From IMG/VR virus record IMGVR_UViG_3300032308_001864, positions 1-52,750 of that record: 52,750 nt of DNA; one strand, 5' to 3'. This stretch comes from a virus. A program made the translations under genes and the position numbers. The stretch's first letter is position 1. Every line of letters begins with the position of its first letter. Under the pieces are notes generated by a model, which was not told the DNA's origin, did not search any database, and saw only the letters and a program-made list of their open reading frames with translations. Shown here one piece after another: positions 1,355 to 49,698 of this stretch.

Positions 1355-1663
1355 TTATTTTAAATCCACTAAAGTTGCCAAGATTTCTACTTCACGGCAT
1401 ATATAATATTCTTCACCATCAATTTTTACTTCTGTAACCACAGCTTTGGGTACAATTACAATATCACCTACTTTAGATTTCATAGGGAAATATGCTTCAA
1501 CTGGAGAGTATGGATTATACATTCCCTCACCCACTGAAATAACTTGAAAATGATTTGATTTTTCTTTTCCTGTATCGGGTATAATAATACCTCCTACCAT
1601 TTCTTGGTCTGATTCTAATTTTTTCAGAACAATTTTGTCATGTAACGCTACTAAAGATTTCAT
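1355..1663 (-). CDS. groES: GroES-type co-chaperonin (Cpn10)
   Basis: This is a 102-residue Cpn10 lid protein. The N-terminal LHDKIVLKKLE matches the family start. The mobile-loop region reads GGIIIPDTGKEK, with a hydrophobic III tripeptide at the place where Cpn10 contacts Cpn60. The C-terminal half has the canonical TEVKIDGEEYYICRE. An insertion around MYNPYSPVEAYFP (residues about 48-60) is longer than in typical bacterial GroES (about 95 aa). It lies downstream of the sliding clamp and upstream of groEL. Having both GroES and GroEL, rather than a GroES substitute alone as in T4 gp31, is uncommon among phages. Confidence 0.93.
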   Translation of the reverse strand: MKSLVALHDKIVLKKLESDQEMVGGIIIPDTGKEKSNHFQVISVGEGMYNPYSPVEAYFPMKSKVGDIVIVPKAVVTEVKIDGEEYYICREVEILATLVDLK

Positions 1664-21747: not shown

Positions 21748-23955
21748 TTAAGCAAAAGAATTATAAGATATACCTTGAGCCGTTCCAACTTTAACAGAAT
21801 CCATTATTACTGTACCACCTCTTTGTAATAGTTCTATCATCTGTTTATTTTGTGATACAACGACTTCATTTTGTTCTATTAATTTAGACATACCCTTTAT
21901 GTCAAAAATATTCTGTTTATTTAGAGGTATTATTGCCTCGGGACCAGCTTCACCAATCATCCCCACATGTTTTCTAACTGCTATACCGCCATCAGCATGC
22001 CTGTTACCATCTGGTATAGCTTCTTCTGCGCCATTTATTCTAGTGGCGGCAAATGCCCCGGCAGCTATACCACCTATAGCAATACCTGCAGGACCAAAAG
22101 CTGCACCCATCAATCCCCCCATTAAAGTTGCTATTCCGACCGCAACAAGTTTTAATTTCTGAGCATCACTTAATATATTAGCAAAACCCTCCGCCAATCT
22201 CATAAGAGGCCCAGAAGTTATCTGAATTAATATTTGCTGTAATTTTAACATAGATTGTTCAAACTGTTTTTGAATAGTAACTTTTTGAATATCCTGTAAT
22301 AAAATTTGACCGTTTTGTTTTTTTAATATTTCTTGTTCAAATTGTCTTTTTTCTTCACCGTCTTTTATAGTCTCGTATTTTTTCTGCAATTCTTCTCTAT
22401 CTTGAACTCCTAAATCATTAAACAACTTTTGGTTTTTCATCATTTCCATCATTTCGTCCGATGACATACCTAACAAAGAAGCCAGCGATTTTCTTTGAAT
22501 AACATTAAGACTCATCAATTTGTCTATACCCCCAAACTGTTTAGATATTTCAGCTACTGCCTGTGAATCTTTTCCATCTAAAGCAAGTGATCTTGCTCTC
22601 TCTAGATTCAATTGACGTCCTGTTAATAATTCTGCTTCTAATTCGTTACTTATAGAACTTTCAAAATCTAATAGCCCATCAGCTGCTTTAGCTGCTTGTT
22701 CCATAGTAAAACCTAATTTATTAGCTTGTACCACGGCTTGCGTTATTTGTTCTACGTTTCCTTTATATTTAGCAAAAGTTTCCCCACCTATGTTTGAAAC
22801 ATCTTTCATTATCTTTTTATATGCAACAGATGTTCTATTCATTTTTAAAGTAGTCTGCATTAAATCTGATGCTGATTTACCTGTAAGTAATGACATTTTT
22901 TGGATGTTACCGGCTTCTTCTGCAGTAAGACCCATTTTTTCGGTCATGTCTATCTGATCTTTTAATTGTTGAGCAGTAAACATGGCGTTTGTCTGTAAAA
23001 CACCCTGTAAGGAACTTAATGCGTTTCCTAAATTTTGTGTATTTACAAATGAGTCATTTGCAGATAGTTGCATAGCATTGAAACTTACTTGAATACGTCT
23101 AGCAAAATCATTTGAAACGCCCATATTATTTGACATTTCTACAACAGATTCATTTAGCTTCATCATGCCTTTCCATAAAAATGAAATAGTTGTCGATATA
23201 GCGGTAATACTAACTAAAGGATCATTGAAAGATTGTTTTAATTGTTCACCCGTAGAGATTATACCTCGTTTAAAAACATCAAATTTAGTGGAACCCGCTG
23301 TTCTAGCAACATTTTCCATATCATCTCGAATGGCTTTTAAATTCATAAGATCACCAAAAATAGGAATTTTTGATACCCCCTTAATAAGTTTATCTATGAT
23401 ACCCATTTTAATCAAAAGCTTACCGTATTCTTTGTTAGCTGCTAAAACACGTTTTTCTTGATCCTCTTGAACATTTAATATGTTTCGGTTTTTAGCAAAA
23501 ATTTCAGTTAACATAGCTGCATGTAAATTCTGTTCAGTAGAATTATGTTGAGCTAATATTAAAGCTTGTTCCGCCAACATATTTAAATCTTTTTGAATTT
23601 GAGCCTGGTCGTTACCAGAATTTAAAATAGTATCTAACTGATTTTTAAGAGTACTATTATTTCTAGTAGAATGTTCTTCTATCTGCTGCAGCAATTGAAC
23701 TTCTTTAGCTTTACTTACATCTAATTCTCTTTGTATATTTCTATGTCTAATAAATTCGGTACCTAATTTAGCTTCTAGATCTAGAGTTTGTTTTAAACTA
23801 TTATTGACTGATGTCGCAATCGATTTAATAGTTCTATAAGATTGGGAGGCAGCTTGTGGCACTGATTGCGCAACTCGAGATAACCTATCACGGGTATCGT
23901 CAAACGCCATTTGGAGGTCAGTTAAGTCCTTTATTATTTGGTCATTAGTAGCCAT
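21748..23955 (-). CDS. Tape measure protein
   Basis: This 735-residue tape measure protein sets tail length. The first 200 residues are predicted coiled-coil (long runs of charged/Leu heptads, e.g. LMAEQALILAQHN region). A Gly/Ala-rich hydrophobic segment (about 610-640, GGLMGAAFGPAGIAIGGIAA) is a probable membrane-inserting stretch. The hallmark GEAGPEAIIPLNK preceded by ADGGIAVRKHVG lies at about 652-682. It lies downstream of the gp26-like chaperone gene, the classical order for tail operons. Confidence 0.9.
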   Translation of the reverse strand: MATNDQIIKDLTDLQMAFDDTRDRLSRVAQSVPQAASQSYRTIKSIATSVNNSLKQTLDLEAKLGTEFIRHRNIQRELDVSKAKEVQLLQQIEEHSTRNNSTLKNQLDTILNSGNDQAQIQKDLNMLAEQALILAQHNSTEQNLHAAMLTEIFAKNRNILNVQEDQEKRVLAANKEYGKLLIKMGIIDKLIKGVSKIPIFGDLMNLKAIRDDMENVARTAGSTKFDVFKRGIISTGEQLKQSFNDPLVSITAISTTISFLWKGMMKLNESVVEMSNNMGVSNDFARRIQVSFNAMQLSANDSFVNTQNLGNALSSLQGVLQTNAMFTAQQLKDQIDMTEKMGLTAEEAGNIQKMSLLTGKSASDLMQTTLKMNRTSVAYKKIMKDVSNIGGETFAKYKGNVEQITQAVVQANKLGFTMEQAAKAADGLLDFESSISNELEAELLTGRQLNLERARSLALDGKDSQAVAEISKQFGGIDKLMSLNVIQRKSLASLLGMSSDEMMEMMKNQKLFNDLGVQDREELQKKYETIKDGEEKRQFEQEILKKQNGQILLQDIQKVTIQKQFEQSMLKLQQILIQITSGPLMRLAEGFANILSDAQKLKLVAVGIATLMGGLMGAAFGPAGIAIGGIAAGAFAATRINGAEEAIPDGNRHADGGIAVRKHVGMIGEAGPEAIIPLNKQNIFDIKGMSKLIEQNEVVVSQNKQMIELLQRGGTVIMDSVKVGTAQGISYNSFA

Positions 23956-24024: not shown

Positions 24025-24279
24025 TTACTTTTTCCTAGACATATTAGTGGCATAATCAAAAGATACCGGATTCTTTTTAGCCAAATCGTTCAAATTCAAA
24101 GTATTTTTAGAATGGTCTTTGTTGGCTTCTTCGATCTTTTTTACCAATTTTCCTATATTAAATTTACGTATAGGTACAGGCATATGATAACATTCATAGT
24201 ATGTTATACCCCCATTACTATTAGTACATAACCACAATAATTCTTCGTGAAATCCTTTCCGATAATTATCATCTAGGCC
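24025..24279 (-). CDS. Frameshift-encoded C-terminal extension of the tail assembly chaperone
   Basis: This reading frame encodes 84 residues from Gly (GGC at 24279) to the stop at 24025. It is open through the end of the gp26-like gene but has no ATG until residue 39 (CYHMPVPIRKF); the preceding residues (DNYRKGFHEELLWLCTNSNG) look like genuine protein. It joins the upstream gene in the +1 frame exactly at a run of seven T on the minus strand (24286-24280), GAC TTT TTT TGG, where tRNA-Phe can slip forward one base and read GGC next. The joint product would be 331 residues. This is the gpG/gpGT arrangement of tail assembly chaperones, just upstream of the tape measure gene. Independent initiation at a TTG (24237) cannot be excluded. 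Confidence 0.65.
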   Translation of the reverse strand, partial: GLDDNYRKGFHEELLWLCTNSNGGITYYECYHMPVPIRKFNIGKLVKKIEEANKDHSKNTLNLNDLAKKNPVSFDYATNMSRKK

Positions 24280-25021
24280 AAAAAAAGTCCGCCGTAAATG
24301 GCAAGCTAAGGCCCTCCACTACCTCGCCATCTTTCTTGGTGAAGGATACTGTTAGATCTACTCCTGGTGATAAATTTTCTACGTGCCGTCTGAATTTTAA
24401 AGAATCTAATGCCGGCATTGAATCTACAAAATTGTTTATTGTGCCTCGATTTTTATCACCATTTACAGCTACAATCATTTTTTTCAATTTAGTTGTAACT
24501 TCGGAAGCCATGTTCTTTCCTAACCTTTCCATAGAACGGAGTTCATCGGATATTTCTTTTTCGTCCCTACCAGTTAAAAACTTATAGGTAACAGTGACTT
24601 TACTCAAAGGCAAAACAAATTCGTGTTCATTGAGACCTTTTGTAAATAGAGATTCGTCTATTTCTTTATTTTTTAAAGCTGTCAAATCTACTATAACTTC
24701 TTCTTTTTTACTACCATCGGTATAATCAAAAGCATAGTCTTTTCCATAAGCTAATACTCTAGCTGCTACAATAATAGCATCTTTATCACCTATTAAAAGA
24801 TCCATATGATCAATTTTAGAAATTATAATTGATTCTATGAATTTGTCAATTGCGGCATTCTGCTTAATCAGATTTTTATTAGTTATAATATCTTCTTCTT
24901 TAGCGGTGGGTATTTTAAGTTCAATTATACCGTTGCTAATAGGACTAGAAGAAGGGTAGAAAATACCTTTTGAAGGTAAATCTAAAGGTTGAGAAGGTAG
25001 ATCGAAAACATTGTTTGTCAT
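24269..25021 (-). CDS. T4 gp26-like baseplate hub / tail assembly chaperone
   Basis: This 250-residue protein resembles the T4 gp26 family. The N-terminus has LPSKGIFYPSSSPISNGIIE and TAKEEDIITNKNLI. A conserved core follows with DLLIGDKDAIIVAARVLAYG. It ends PFTADFFWPR, and the final DFFW codons form the slippery T7 run that appears to give a +1 frameshift product (see the adjacent entry). The shorter, in-frame product would be the major form. Position directly before the tape measure gene supports a chaperone role in tail assembly; in T4, gp26 is needed for the baseplate hub. Confidence 0.85.
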   Translation of the reverse strand: MTNNVFDLPSQPLDLPSKGIFYPSSSPISNGIIELKIPTAKEEDIITNKNLIKQNAAIDKFIESIIISKIDHMDLLIGDKDAIIVAARVLAYGKDYAFDYTDGSKKEEVIVDLTALKNKEIDESLFTKGLNEHEFVLPLSKVTVTYKFLTGRDEKEISDELRSMERLGKNMASEVTTKLKKMIVAVNGDKNRGTINNFVDSMPALDSLKFRRHVENLSPGVDLTVSFTKKDGEVVEGLSLPFTADFFWPR

Positions 25022-32534: not shown

Positions 32535-32933
32535 ATGCCAATAAAAAGAGAAGAATATAATATACTTAGACAAGATATATATAAAAATGTTGGAATAGGT
32601 ATTGAAATACCTTTTTCAGAAGATACCGTTTTTAAAACCACATATTCTTCAAAAGATCAAATTAAAAGTAATCTCATCAATTATTTGTTATCAAATGTTG
32701 GTGAGAGACCTTTTAGTTCATTTGGCGCTAATCTACGGCAGTACATTTTTGAACAGATGGTAGATGAAGAAAGACTTTCTGAAATATTGATTGAAAAAAT
32801 ATATCTATATGTTCCTAATATAACAGTGAACAAAGTAGACGTTTCTAAAATAGAAGAAGATAATTCTTTGGCTATACAGATTTACTATTCTTATAATAAC
32901 ACTAACGATAAAATAGCAATAAAAATAGCATAA
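32535..32933 (+). CDS. Baseplate wedge protein, gp25-like
   Basis: This 132-residue protein starts at ATG 32535; a TTG-initiated longer form would lie inside the previous gene. The family signature is clear: GIGIEIPFS, then FKTTYSSKDQIKSNLINYLL and VGERPFSSFGANLRQYIFE. gp25 nucleates sheath assembly on the wedge and works with gp6. Its stop overlaps the gp6 start (TAATG). Confidence 0.93.
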   Translation: MPIKREEYNILRQDIYKNVGIGIEIPFSEDTVFKTTYSSKDQIKSNLINYLLSNVGERPFSSFGANLRQYIFEQMVDEERLSEILIEKIYLYVPNITVNKVDVSKIEEDNSLAIQIYYSYNNTNDKIAIKIA

Positions 32934-34822
32934 TGCCTACTAAAGATATATCATATATTAATAAAGACTTCTCTTCTTTTAAAAATTCGCTAGTTCAATA
33001 CGCGAAAAACTATTTCCCCACGACTTACACGGACTTTTCCGATGCTAACCCGGGTAATATGTTTATTGAGATGGCTAGTTACGTAGGCGATGTTCTTTCT
33101 TTTTATATCGACAAGCAGGTCCAAGAAAATTTCTTGATGTTTGCTCAAGAAAAAGAAAATCTTATATCTTTAGCTTATGCTTTAGGGTACAGACCCAGAG
33201 TAACTTCAACTGCAACGGTTTTTTTGGATGTATATCAACAGGTACCAGCCATAATAAATGGCGGGGTGGCTTCTCCTGATTATAACTATTGTTTAATCGT
33301 AGATAAAGAAACCAAAGTTAGATCTTCTGATGCTTCAAATACTGTTTTTATAACAGAGGATTTAGTTGATTTTAGTTTTTCTTCTTCTGCCGATACCACG
33401 AACGTAAACGTTTACCAAATAAATACTGTAACAAATCAACCAGATTACTATTTGCTGAAAAAATCAGTAAAAGCTATTGCGGGGACTATAAACACGGCAT
33501 ATTTTTCTTTTGGTAATCCGATTAAATTTCAAAGTATAACAATAGATGATGAAAATATCATTGAAATATTAGATGTAGTTGATAGCGATGGTAATAAATG
33601 GTATGAAGTACCTTATTTAGCTCAAAATACTGTTTTTGAAGAGGTCAGGAACACCGAATTAAATGATCCTTTTCTTTCTCAGTATAACAATACTACGCCA
33701 TATCTTTTAAGAACTCGAAAGGTTCAACGTAGATTTACCACAAGATTTGATTCTAACAATAAATTAACAATAGAATTTGGGGCGGGTATCATAAATTCTA
33801 ATGATGAGGAAATTGTTCCTAATTCCGACAATATAGGCATAGGTTTAATCGATAGTATAACTAAATTAAACACCGCATTTGACCCAGCAAACTTTATGTA
33901 TACTAGGGAATACGGTCTTGCTCCTTCTAATACAAATTTAACTATACGATATATATCTGGTGGTGGTGTATCAACCAATGTTCCTGCAAATAGCATTACA
34001 CAGATATATGAAATGTCTTTAAACACTGTTTCTTTAGTGCAATCAACATTAAATCAGCAATTATTAAACTATGTTAAAAATTCAATTGCTTTTAATAATG
34101 AAAATCCTTCTTCTGGAGGGGGTGACGGTGATAGTATAGAAGATATCAGGCTTAAAACAATGGCTAATTTTCCTACTCAGCTTAGGAATGTTACCAAAGA
34201 CGACCACATGATAAGAGCTTTAAGCATGCCCTCCAAGTTTGGAATGTTATCTAAAGTATATGTGGCACAAGATTTAGCTTTAGGAGAGTATGATAAGCAA
34301 GAGGATTTTATAAATAGTAACCCTTTATCTCTAAGTTTTTATGTTCTTTCCTTTGATTCGGATAAAAAACTAACAAAAGCTTCTCGTGCAATAAAAGAAA
34401 ATCTTAAAAACTATATTGGGCAATATAAAATTTTAAGTGATGGTATAAATATAAAAGACGCGTACTATATAAACGTAGGAGTTAATTTTGATATAATAGT
34501 ATTACCCGCATATAACAGTCGAGAAGTATTAAATCAAGCCTTATCTAGCGTCAAAGACTATTTTAATATAGATAAATGGCAAATAAATCAACCTATAATA
34601 CTATCAGACATTTATAATCTTTTAAATGCTGTACAAGGCGTGCAAAGTGTTGTAAAAGTTGATATAACAAACAAATATGGTGTTGTAAATGGGTATTCAG
34701 AATATGGATACGACATAAAAGGTGCGACAAAAAATAACATAATATATCCAAGTTTGGACCCGGCAATTTTTGAGGTGAGATATCCTAACAACGATATTTA
34801 TGGTAAGATAATAACATACTAA
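32933..34822 (+). CDS. Baseplate wedge protein, gp6/gpJ-like
   Basis: This 629-residue protein forms the inner iris ring of the baseplate with gp25. The N-terminus, ISYINKDFSSFKNSLVQYA, then DANPGNMFIEMASYVGDVLS and QEKENLISLAYALGYRPR, is typical of T4 gp6-like wedges (T4 gp6: 660 aa). The middle has GGGDGDSIEDIRLKTMANFP, the conserved gpJ-type segment before the C-terminal dimer domain. Confidence 0.94.
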   Translation: MPTKDISYINKDFSSFKNSLVQYAKNYFPTTYTDFSDANPGNMFIEMASYVGDVLSFYIDKQVQENFLMFAQEKENLISLAYALGYRPRVTSTATVFLDVYQQVPAIINGGVASPDYNYCLIVDKETKVRSSDASNTVFITEDLVDFSFSSSADTTNVNVYQINTVTNQPDYYLLKKSVKAIAGTINTAYFSFGNPIKFQSITIDDENIIEILDVVDSDGNKWYEVPYLAQNTVFEEVRNTELNDPFLSQYNNTTPYLLRTRKVQRRFTTRFDSNNKLTIEFGAGIINSNDEEIVPNSDNIGIGLIDSITKLNTAFDPANFMYTREYGLAPSNTNLTIRYISGGGVSTNVPANSITQIYEMSLNTVSLVQSTLNQQLLNYVKNSIAFNNENPSSGGGDGDSIEDIRLKTMANFPTQLRNVTKDDHMIRALSMPSKFGMLSKVYVAQDLALGEYDKQEDFINSNPLSLSFYVLSFDSDKKLTKASRAIKENLKNYIGQYKILSDGINIKDAYYINVGVNFDIIVLPAYNSREVLNQALSSVKDYFNIDKWQINQPIILSDIYNLLNAVQGVQSVVKVDITNKYGVVNGYSEYGYDIKGATKNNIIYPSLDPAIFEVRYPNNDIYGKIITY

Positions 34823-48450: not shown

Positions 48451-49698
48451 ATGAAAAAGATTTTTATATCAATTGCGTCTTATAGAGACCCGGAACTAAT
48501 CCCCACAATCGAAGATTGTATAAAAAATGCTAAAAACCCCGAAAATCTAGTTTTTAGTATAGCTTGGCAACATTCTAAAGACGATTCTTTTGACGATTTA
48601 TCTGTCTACAAAGATGATAAAAGGTTTAAAATTATCGATATACCTTATGAAGAATCTAAAGGGGCGTGTTGGGCAAGAAATAGAGTCCAAGAAAATTATA
48701 ACGGAGAAGATTATTATCTTCAACTAGATTCACATCATAGATTTATCCCTAATTGGGATGCGGAATGCATAAAAATGATACAAAAATTAAAGAAAAAAGG
48801 TTTTAGCAAACCTCTTTTAACAGGTTATGTATCGTCTTATGATCCCTCTAATGACCCGGGATCTAGAATAATGCAGCCTTGGAGAATGGCTTTTGATAGG
48901 TATATACCGGAAGGAGCTATATTCTTTTTACCTGAACAAATTCCTGATTATGAAAAATTAAAAGAGCCCATACCAGCAAGATTTTTATCAGCACATTTTA
49001 TTTTTACTGTGGGTCAATTTGCAAAAGAAGTTCCTTATGACCCCGATTATTATTTTCATGGAGAGGAAATTTCTTTGGCTGCTAGAGCTTACACTTGGGG
49101 GTATGACCTTTTTCATCCACATAAAGTAATAGTTTGGCACGAATATACTAGACGTGGTAGAGTTAAACAATGGGACGATGATAAAGATTGGGTTAACAAA
49201 AATAATAGTGCGCATAAAAGAAATAGAACACTTTTTGGAATGGATGGAGAATGTCCTTGCACAACCGATTTTGGTATTTATGGCTTCGGTAGAGAGAGGA
49301 TGTTGTATGATTACGAGAAATACGCGGGATTACAATTTAGAACAAGACGAGTACATAAAAATACTTTAGATAAGGTAACACCTACACATGAACCTATAAC
49401 TGATCAAGAACATTATGAGGGATTAGTTTCTAGATTTAAACATTGTATAGATGTTTTTCCTGGACAAGTACCGGAAAATGATTATGATTTTTGGGTTGTA
49501 GCAGTACATTCTGAAAATGACGAAACCTTATATAGAAAAGATTTATCCGGCGAAGAAATAAAAGTGTTAGGTAGTGACCCTGACAATTATTATAAGATTT
49601 TTGTGGAATTTGATTCTATAGAAAAGCCTCATTATTGGGTTGTATGGCCGCATAGCACATCTAAAGGGTGGTGCGAAAGATTGACTAATAAAATATAA
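48451..49698 (+). CDS. GlcNAc-transferase-like glycosyltransferase (GT60/PF11397 type)
   Basis: This 415-residue enzyme is of the family that includes eukaryotic polypeptide alpha-GlcNAc transferases acting on Skp1 hydroxyproline and on Thr of trypanosomal mucins. The N-terminus KKIFISIASYRDPELIPTIE and the metal-site motif YLQLDSHHRF (Asp93-Ser-His95, then NWD) are diagnostic, together with GACWARNRVQ (sugar-nucleotide region) and YFHGEEISLAARAYTWGYD. The last 100 residues (from about 320) are an extra, unassigned domain. It lies directly after the Thr/Pro fibre under its own promoter. The fibre as substrate is inference. Confidence 0.85.
   Translation: MKKIFISIASYRDPELIPTIEDCIKNAKNPENLVFSIAWQHSKDDSFDDLSVYKDDKRFKIIDIPYEESKGACWARNRVQENYNGEDYYLQLDSHHRFIPNWDAECIKMIQKLKKKGFSKPLLTGYVSSYDPSNDPGSRIMQPWRMAFDRYIPEGAIFFLPEQIPDYEKLKEPIPARFLSAHFIFTVGQFAKEVPYDPDYYFHGEEISLAARAYTWGYDLFHPHKVIVWHEYTRRGRVKQWDDDKDWVNKNNSAHKRNRTLFGMDGECPCTTDFGIYGFGRERMLYDYEKYAGLQFRTRRVHKNTLDKVTPTHEPITDQEHYEGLVSRFKHCIDVFPGQVPENDYDFWVVAVHSENDETLYRKDLSGEEIKVLGSDPDNYYKIFVEFDSIEKPHYWVVWPHSTSKGWCERLTNKI

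Follow-up and report, generated by a model that had tools for sequence, protein, structure and literature searches.

Our understanding of how tailed phages produce a short and a long tail assembly chaperone is anchored by phage lambda, in which the gpG/gpGT pair is encoded immediately ahead of the tape measure gene and the long form arises through a programmed -1 frameshift. An earlier review named T4 as the exception to G-T frameshifting (PMC5009743), and T4-like phages long counted as such. Vladimirov, Gautam and Davidson (2022, Virology 566:9-15), as cited in two later papers (PMC12846349, PMC10885494), showed which genes encode the T4-like tail assembly chaperones, namely, genes 26 and 51. 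In T4, a gp26-family N part (PF12322/phrog_150) and a gp51-type C part (phrog_634) occur in a short and a long form that are separate genes on opposite strands. According to the citing papers, the same study describes a short gene with a separate long fusion gene and no frameshifting in some T4-like phages (PMC10885494), and poly-T signals for a -1 shift in the TAC-N genes of T4-like phages (PMC12846349). As relayed there, both the chaperone identity of gp26/gp51 and frameshifting in some T4-like phages have therefore been in print since 2022.

Shifts in the forward direction are also on record. A +1 shift is considered very likely in the archaeal myovirus HSTV-2 (PMC5009743), and the training set of PRFect includes forward shifts in tail chaperones (PMC10885494), actinobacteriophages among them. 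In bacterial prfB (RF2), the P-site tRNA at CUU UGA slips +1 onto a U-rich codon, where the A site holds a stop codon and a Shine-Dalgarno-like element acts as stimulator.

Here we consider a locus in a 52,750-nucleotide stretch of viral DNA (IMG/VR record IMGVR_UViG_3300032308_001864), referred to below as the window. Judged by comparison with its relatives, it very probably encodes a tail assembly chaperone of the T4 type, produced in a short form (TAC-N) and, through a +1 frameshift, in a long form (TAC-NC). It shares with lambda a short/long pair just before the tape measure gene and differs in the site and direction of the shift; it shares with T4 the two families and the two forms, with the difference that here one gene would give both. 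Since the chaperone identity, T4-like frameshifting, and +1 shifts elsewhere are published, the kind of event is known, and the interpretation offered by the initial annotation stands in that context. What appears to be new, insofar as the citing papers convey the 2022 study, is the direction: +1 within the T4-like gp26 family as opposed to -1 on the cyanophage/T4 side. The initial annotation had called a +1 event unusual in a T4-like gp26 context, which holds within this family; in other tail chaperones, +1 shifts are already annotated.

Gene arrangement and the two reading frames

The locus lies on the minus strand (Table 1). Its zero frame ends GCG GAC TTT TTT TGG CCT AGA TGA, with a run of exactly seven T. 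From the slip site, the +1 frame stays open to a TAA at 24027-24025, which predicts a fusion product of 331 aa. The ending, the T7 run, and the open +1 frame are thus as first annotated; the extension had been counted as 84 residues where there are 85 codons after the slip, and its first in-frame ATG, placed beyond the first 38 residues, is at extension codon 34. An in-frame TTG lies about 16 codons into the extension.

Table 1. Features of the chaperone locus in the window
Feature	Coordinates	Strand	Remarks
gp26-like short form (TAC-N)	24269..25021	-	zero frame, 250 aa
Slip site TTT TTT T	24280..24286	-	0-frame TTT TTT TGG; +1 frame TTT TTT GGC
Two-frame overlap after slip	24269..24279	-	0-frame W-P-R-stop; +1 frame G-L-D-D
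+1-frame extension (putative TAC-C, gp51-like C-terminal domain)	24025..24282	-	85 aa after slip + stop
Tape-measure-like protein	21748..23955	-	735 aa; directly downstream of chaperone gene

Sequence comparison assigns the N part to the gp26 baseplate-hub family: the 250-aa product matches PF12322 (T4_baseplate) at E 4.5e-6, above the gathering score, and phrog_150 (baseplate hub) at E 2.5e-8, and it is 42% identical to the "baseplate hub subunit" of Flavobacterium phage immuto. Its AlphaFold2 model (pLDDT 90) has viral fold matches that include the baseplate hub subunit of SP-15 (E 7e-17). Among 598 re-aligned solved chains, the HK97 tail assembly chaperone 2ob9 came first at Z 4.8, the next at 2.3; this is the only match in the PDB to stand out, and a modest one with Z below 8, and the corresponding Foldseek chaperone-fold comparison gave E 1.4. 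Profile searches of the PDB with either gp26 or the extension returned chance-level matches only. The extension, folded as a model separate from the gp26 part, is predicted to be helical (pLDDT 77); Foldseek of this model against viral structures found nothing below E 0.8, and the window's own extension had no convincing match among PHROG families. The gp26 proteins of several relatives (L009, L010, L011, and L004 were compared) carry CxxC pairs, such as CPVCGTHSEHSF and CTSCGYEQ, that resemble zinc knuckles; the gp26-like protein of the window (24272-25021, minus strand) has none.

The 735-aa downstream protein shows 29-37% identity over ~320-530 aa to the large gene 3' of gp26 in many relatives, and the gene at this position in immuto is annotated "tail tape measure protein"; its match to the tape measure family phrog_23574 is weak (E 0.012). 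The gp26/tape measure block on the minus strand coexists with a plus-strand block holding a baseplate wedge-like gene (32933-34822). Elsewhere the window encodes a GroES-like co-chaperonin (1355-1663, minus strand; phrog_3188, E 2e-19) and a 415-aa protein that matches a glycosyltransferase family (48451-49698, plus strand; phrog_24687, nearly full length, E 5e-169).

In so AT-rich a window, T7 runs are common (67 + 31 matches on the two strands, overlaps included), with six occurrences of TTTTTTTGG. A T7 run alone is therefore no evidence of frameshifting; what counts is that the site and the +1 peptide are conserved.

Conservation of the frame relation and of the extension

Relatives were retrieved from viral contigs twice, independently: with gp26 as query (91 loci, including L005, L006, and RM378) and with a narrow alignment of the extension alone. 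A scan of bacterial genome contigs with the extension added five loci. The gp26-found and extension-found sets share some contigs, and the total of 176 loci was reduced to 144 representatives by clustering on shared 11-mers, with no strict identity cut-off. A DNA-level search of the phage collection gave no match.

The extension is +1 to gp26 in 91/91 loci of the gp26-found set; conversely, all 80 unique loci of the extension-found set have a long open frame in the gp26 position to which the extension is +1. The layout is accordingly the same in all 176 loci, and it includes four isolated phages: immuto, Microcystis phage Mel-JY01, Bacillus phage SP-15, and Rhodothermus phage RM378, the last with the T7 site and +1 frame present and an extension of no clear sequence similarity.

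The slip region reads TTT TTT TGG CCT in 118 of the 144 representatives. The remainder comprises TTT CTT TGG CCT (seven), TTT TTT TAC CCT (four), TTT TTT TTC CCT (three), and eight rarer forms, and at every one of the 144 sites a tRNA on one or other of the two slip codons could re-pair one base forward with its first two bases matched. The proposal that tRNA-Phe re-pairs one base forward at TTT TTT T, and the expectation of a conserved slippery site, are both supported by this comparison, in that forward re-pairing explains every variant. No T-run length that restores the frame was found in the conserved group; variants of the TTTCTTT type keep the frame relation. The 0-frame wobble base is T in 85/89 and 88/89 at the two slip codons (shared ancestry uncorrected), near-constant compared with the 22% of Phe codons that are TTC elsewhere in the gp26-family genes of relatives.

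A conserved +1 peptide, FFGLxxxY...GGxxxxxVYNMPIxLR, runs from the slip site onward. Past the slip, the 0-frame tail differs in length between relatives (3 to 8 residues), while the +1 residues are conserved. Between relatives, and with shared ancestry uncorrected, changes in the extension are distributed over the three +1-frame codon positions as 30/17/53%, and codons with a single change number 988 synonymous versus 515 nonsynonymous. By these substitution patterns, the extension is under purifying selection.

The gp51 likeness is seen at the domain level, through profile comparison. Against profiles of the gp51 C-terminal domain, built from T4-like gp51 and the -1-frame extensions of cyanophage-type phages, hhalign scored the extension at 37.2 (E 4e-7); the maximum of 100 column shuffles was 18.9, so that 0/100 reached the observed score. 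The extension of one relative (L009) also matches phrog_634, "baseplate hub assembly catalyst", at E 5.7e-4. T4 gp51 itself matches gp26 profiles (E 5e-17, probability 98.8%), as well as both phrog_150 and phrog_634; these matches make it a paralogue of gp26 to which a C domain has been added. When the fusion profile was compared over its whole length with T4 gp51 and gp26, hhalign gave no significant score (P 0.05 and 0.32). Domain profiles, by contrast, show homology between the extension and the T4 gp51 C-terminal domain.

Proposed slippage at the Phe codons and competing explanations

From these comparisons we infer slippage, its efficiency, the Phe codon that slips, and a role in assembly, as follows. 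Most ribosomes would end at the 250-aa gp26-like protein. In a minority, with tRNA-Phe on TTT in the P site and TGG in the A site, the tRNA would slip one base forward on TTTTTTT and re-pair with TTT; reading would resume at GGC CTA GAT... to give the 331-aa TAC-NC with its gp51-like C-terminal domain. This would be slippage of a single P-site tRNA, Phe-tRNA in most loci, with TGG (or TAC, TTC, CAC, CGT) in the A site. On the model of lambda gpG/gpGT, coating of the tape measure protein would fall to the N part and recruitment of tube subunits to the rare C domain.

The A-site TGG is an ordinary sense codon, used 9.4 times per 1000 codons in the long ORFs of the window. The window contains no tRNA gene and so gives no ground for invoking a tRNA encoded by the phage. 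Downstream RNA structure is no better than in the upstream stretch (mean fold z -0.5 to -0.9 over 60-80 nt), a Shine-Dalgarno-like sequence upstream of the slip occurs in few loci, and no clear stimulator was found. The TTT CTT TGG variants resemble the CUU U of prfB, with which the proposed mechanism has in common a P-site tRNA moving one base forward onto a U-rich codon; neither the A-site stop codon of prfB nor its Shine-Dalgarno-like stimulator is seen at the phage slip site.

A shift of -2 would reach the same frame, adding one residue at the junction, and the reading frame alone cannot separate it from +1, because frames +1 and -2 coincide. Such a shift operates in the tail genes of phage Mu. 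Where the run is seven uninterrupted T, re-pairing two bases back is indeed open to the second Phe-tRNA, and -2 is possible at 129/144 sites. At the other 15, among them TTT CTT TGG, TTC TTT TGG, TTT CTA TTC, and TTC TTT TTT, re-pairing two bases back with two matched bases is impossible, unlike +1 re-pairing, which is open to all 144. We consider -2 improbable.

Slightly less probable still is that the downstream frame is a gene in its own right, started independently or by coupling, as the annotations of immuto (a 37-aa ORF) and Mel-JY01 (a TTG start), the in-frame TTG of the window, and the existence of small gp51 genes with their own ATG in cyanophages and others might suggest. The conserved peptide, however, begins at FFGL, 5' of any conserved start, and candidate start positions differ between relatives. 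From the upstream +1 stop to 60 nt past the slip, ATG is absent in 111/144 representatives, and ATG, GTG, and TTG are all absent in 71/144; a +1-frame stop lies no more than two codons before the slip in 13/144. No conserved start was found in any relative of the conserved group, a distant relative described below being the exception. Conservation together with the lack of a start thus favors, as first annotated, a gp26-like tail chaperone upstream of the tape measure that shifts into the +1 frame. The extension pieces of immuto (QQO92150.1, L002:3836-3946) and Mel-JY01 (WWT39326.1, L003:3740-3976), deposited as "hypothetical proteins" that start at an internal ATG or TTG, are likely misannotated, and the +1 reading would correct the filing of such downstream pieces.

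RNA polymerase slippage on T7/A7, yielding a fraction of mRNA with a changed number of U, would exploit the homopolymer run present at the junction of most loci. Seven-base runs are short for efficient polymerase slippage, and the arrangement persists at TTTCTTT, TTCTTTTGG, TTTCTATTC, and similar sites that have no long homopolymer, which makes this source of the long form very improbable. A sequencing error or a decaying gene with one T too many or too few, conceivable for a homopolymer in an IMG/VR-type virus record, is already refuted by the comparative data: the same frame relation recurs across independent assemblies, in 144 representatives, as well as in the deposited genomes of immuto, Mel-JY01, SP-15, and RM378, several loci lack the T7 run, and the extension shows the purifying selection noted above.

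Proposed opposite shifts within the gp26 family

On the cyanophage/Ackermannvirus/T4 side, the gp51-like piece lies in the -1 frame in all ten loci sampled (Syn19, Sf-FS3, DLP_6, Ah1, CC2, D484, IC12, Cygsa01, K474, and Klebsiella 0507-KN2-1), with T TTT TTC at the gp26 end in most and a nearby ATG in several. These -1 loci, which include cyanophages, DLP_6, Aeromonas Ah1/CC2, Vibrio D484, and Rhizobium IC12, resemble the window locus in that a homologous gp26 ends at a Phe-Phe pair with the gp51 C-domain in another frame just downstream and possible slippage at Phe codons; they differ in heptamer and frame, T TTT TTC with -1 as opposed to TTT TTT T with +1. Within the present comparison, the T7/Phe site with a TGG A-site codon is seen in the gp26 family only.

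In a maximum-likelihood tree of the gp26 part, a branch with 100/100 support separates all sampled +1 rows (25/25) from every -1 or separate-gene row. Since one supported branch divides them, the direction of the shift appears to have changed once in the gp26 family. A large, mostly uncultured branch thus appears to make the same chaperone by shifting the other way from its cyanophage relatives, and with opposite shifts in related branches, production of a short plus a long form seems conserved while the means changed. We lean slightly toward a history in which the gp26/gp51 family split early, with its two branches shifting in opposite directions at one shared Phe-Phe pair (TTT TTT T for +1, T TTT TTC for -1), and T4 later swapped the shift for a second gene.

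If the +1 reading is correct, this branch constitutes a large natural set of +1 sites that use a single tRNA and a sense A-site codon with no obvious stimulator, and its more than 100 naturally occurring versions of a simple +1 site could serve the study of forward ribosome slippage. The isolated members immuto, Mel-JY01, SP-15, and RM378 make the shift testable. RM378 and L103, the latter a distant relative from a 595-kb uncultured phage, are long branches in the gp26 tree whose exact places are unsure. L103 falls on the +1 side and is an exception to the +1 pattern: its gp51-like ORF is in the -1 frame and has its own ATG immediately past the gp26 stop codon.
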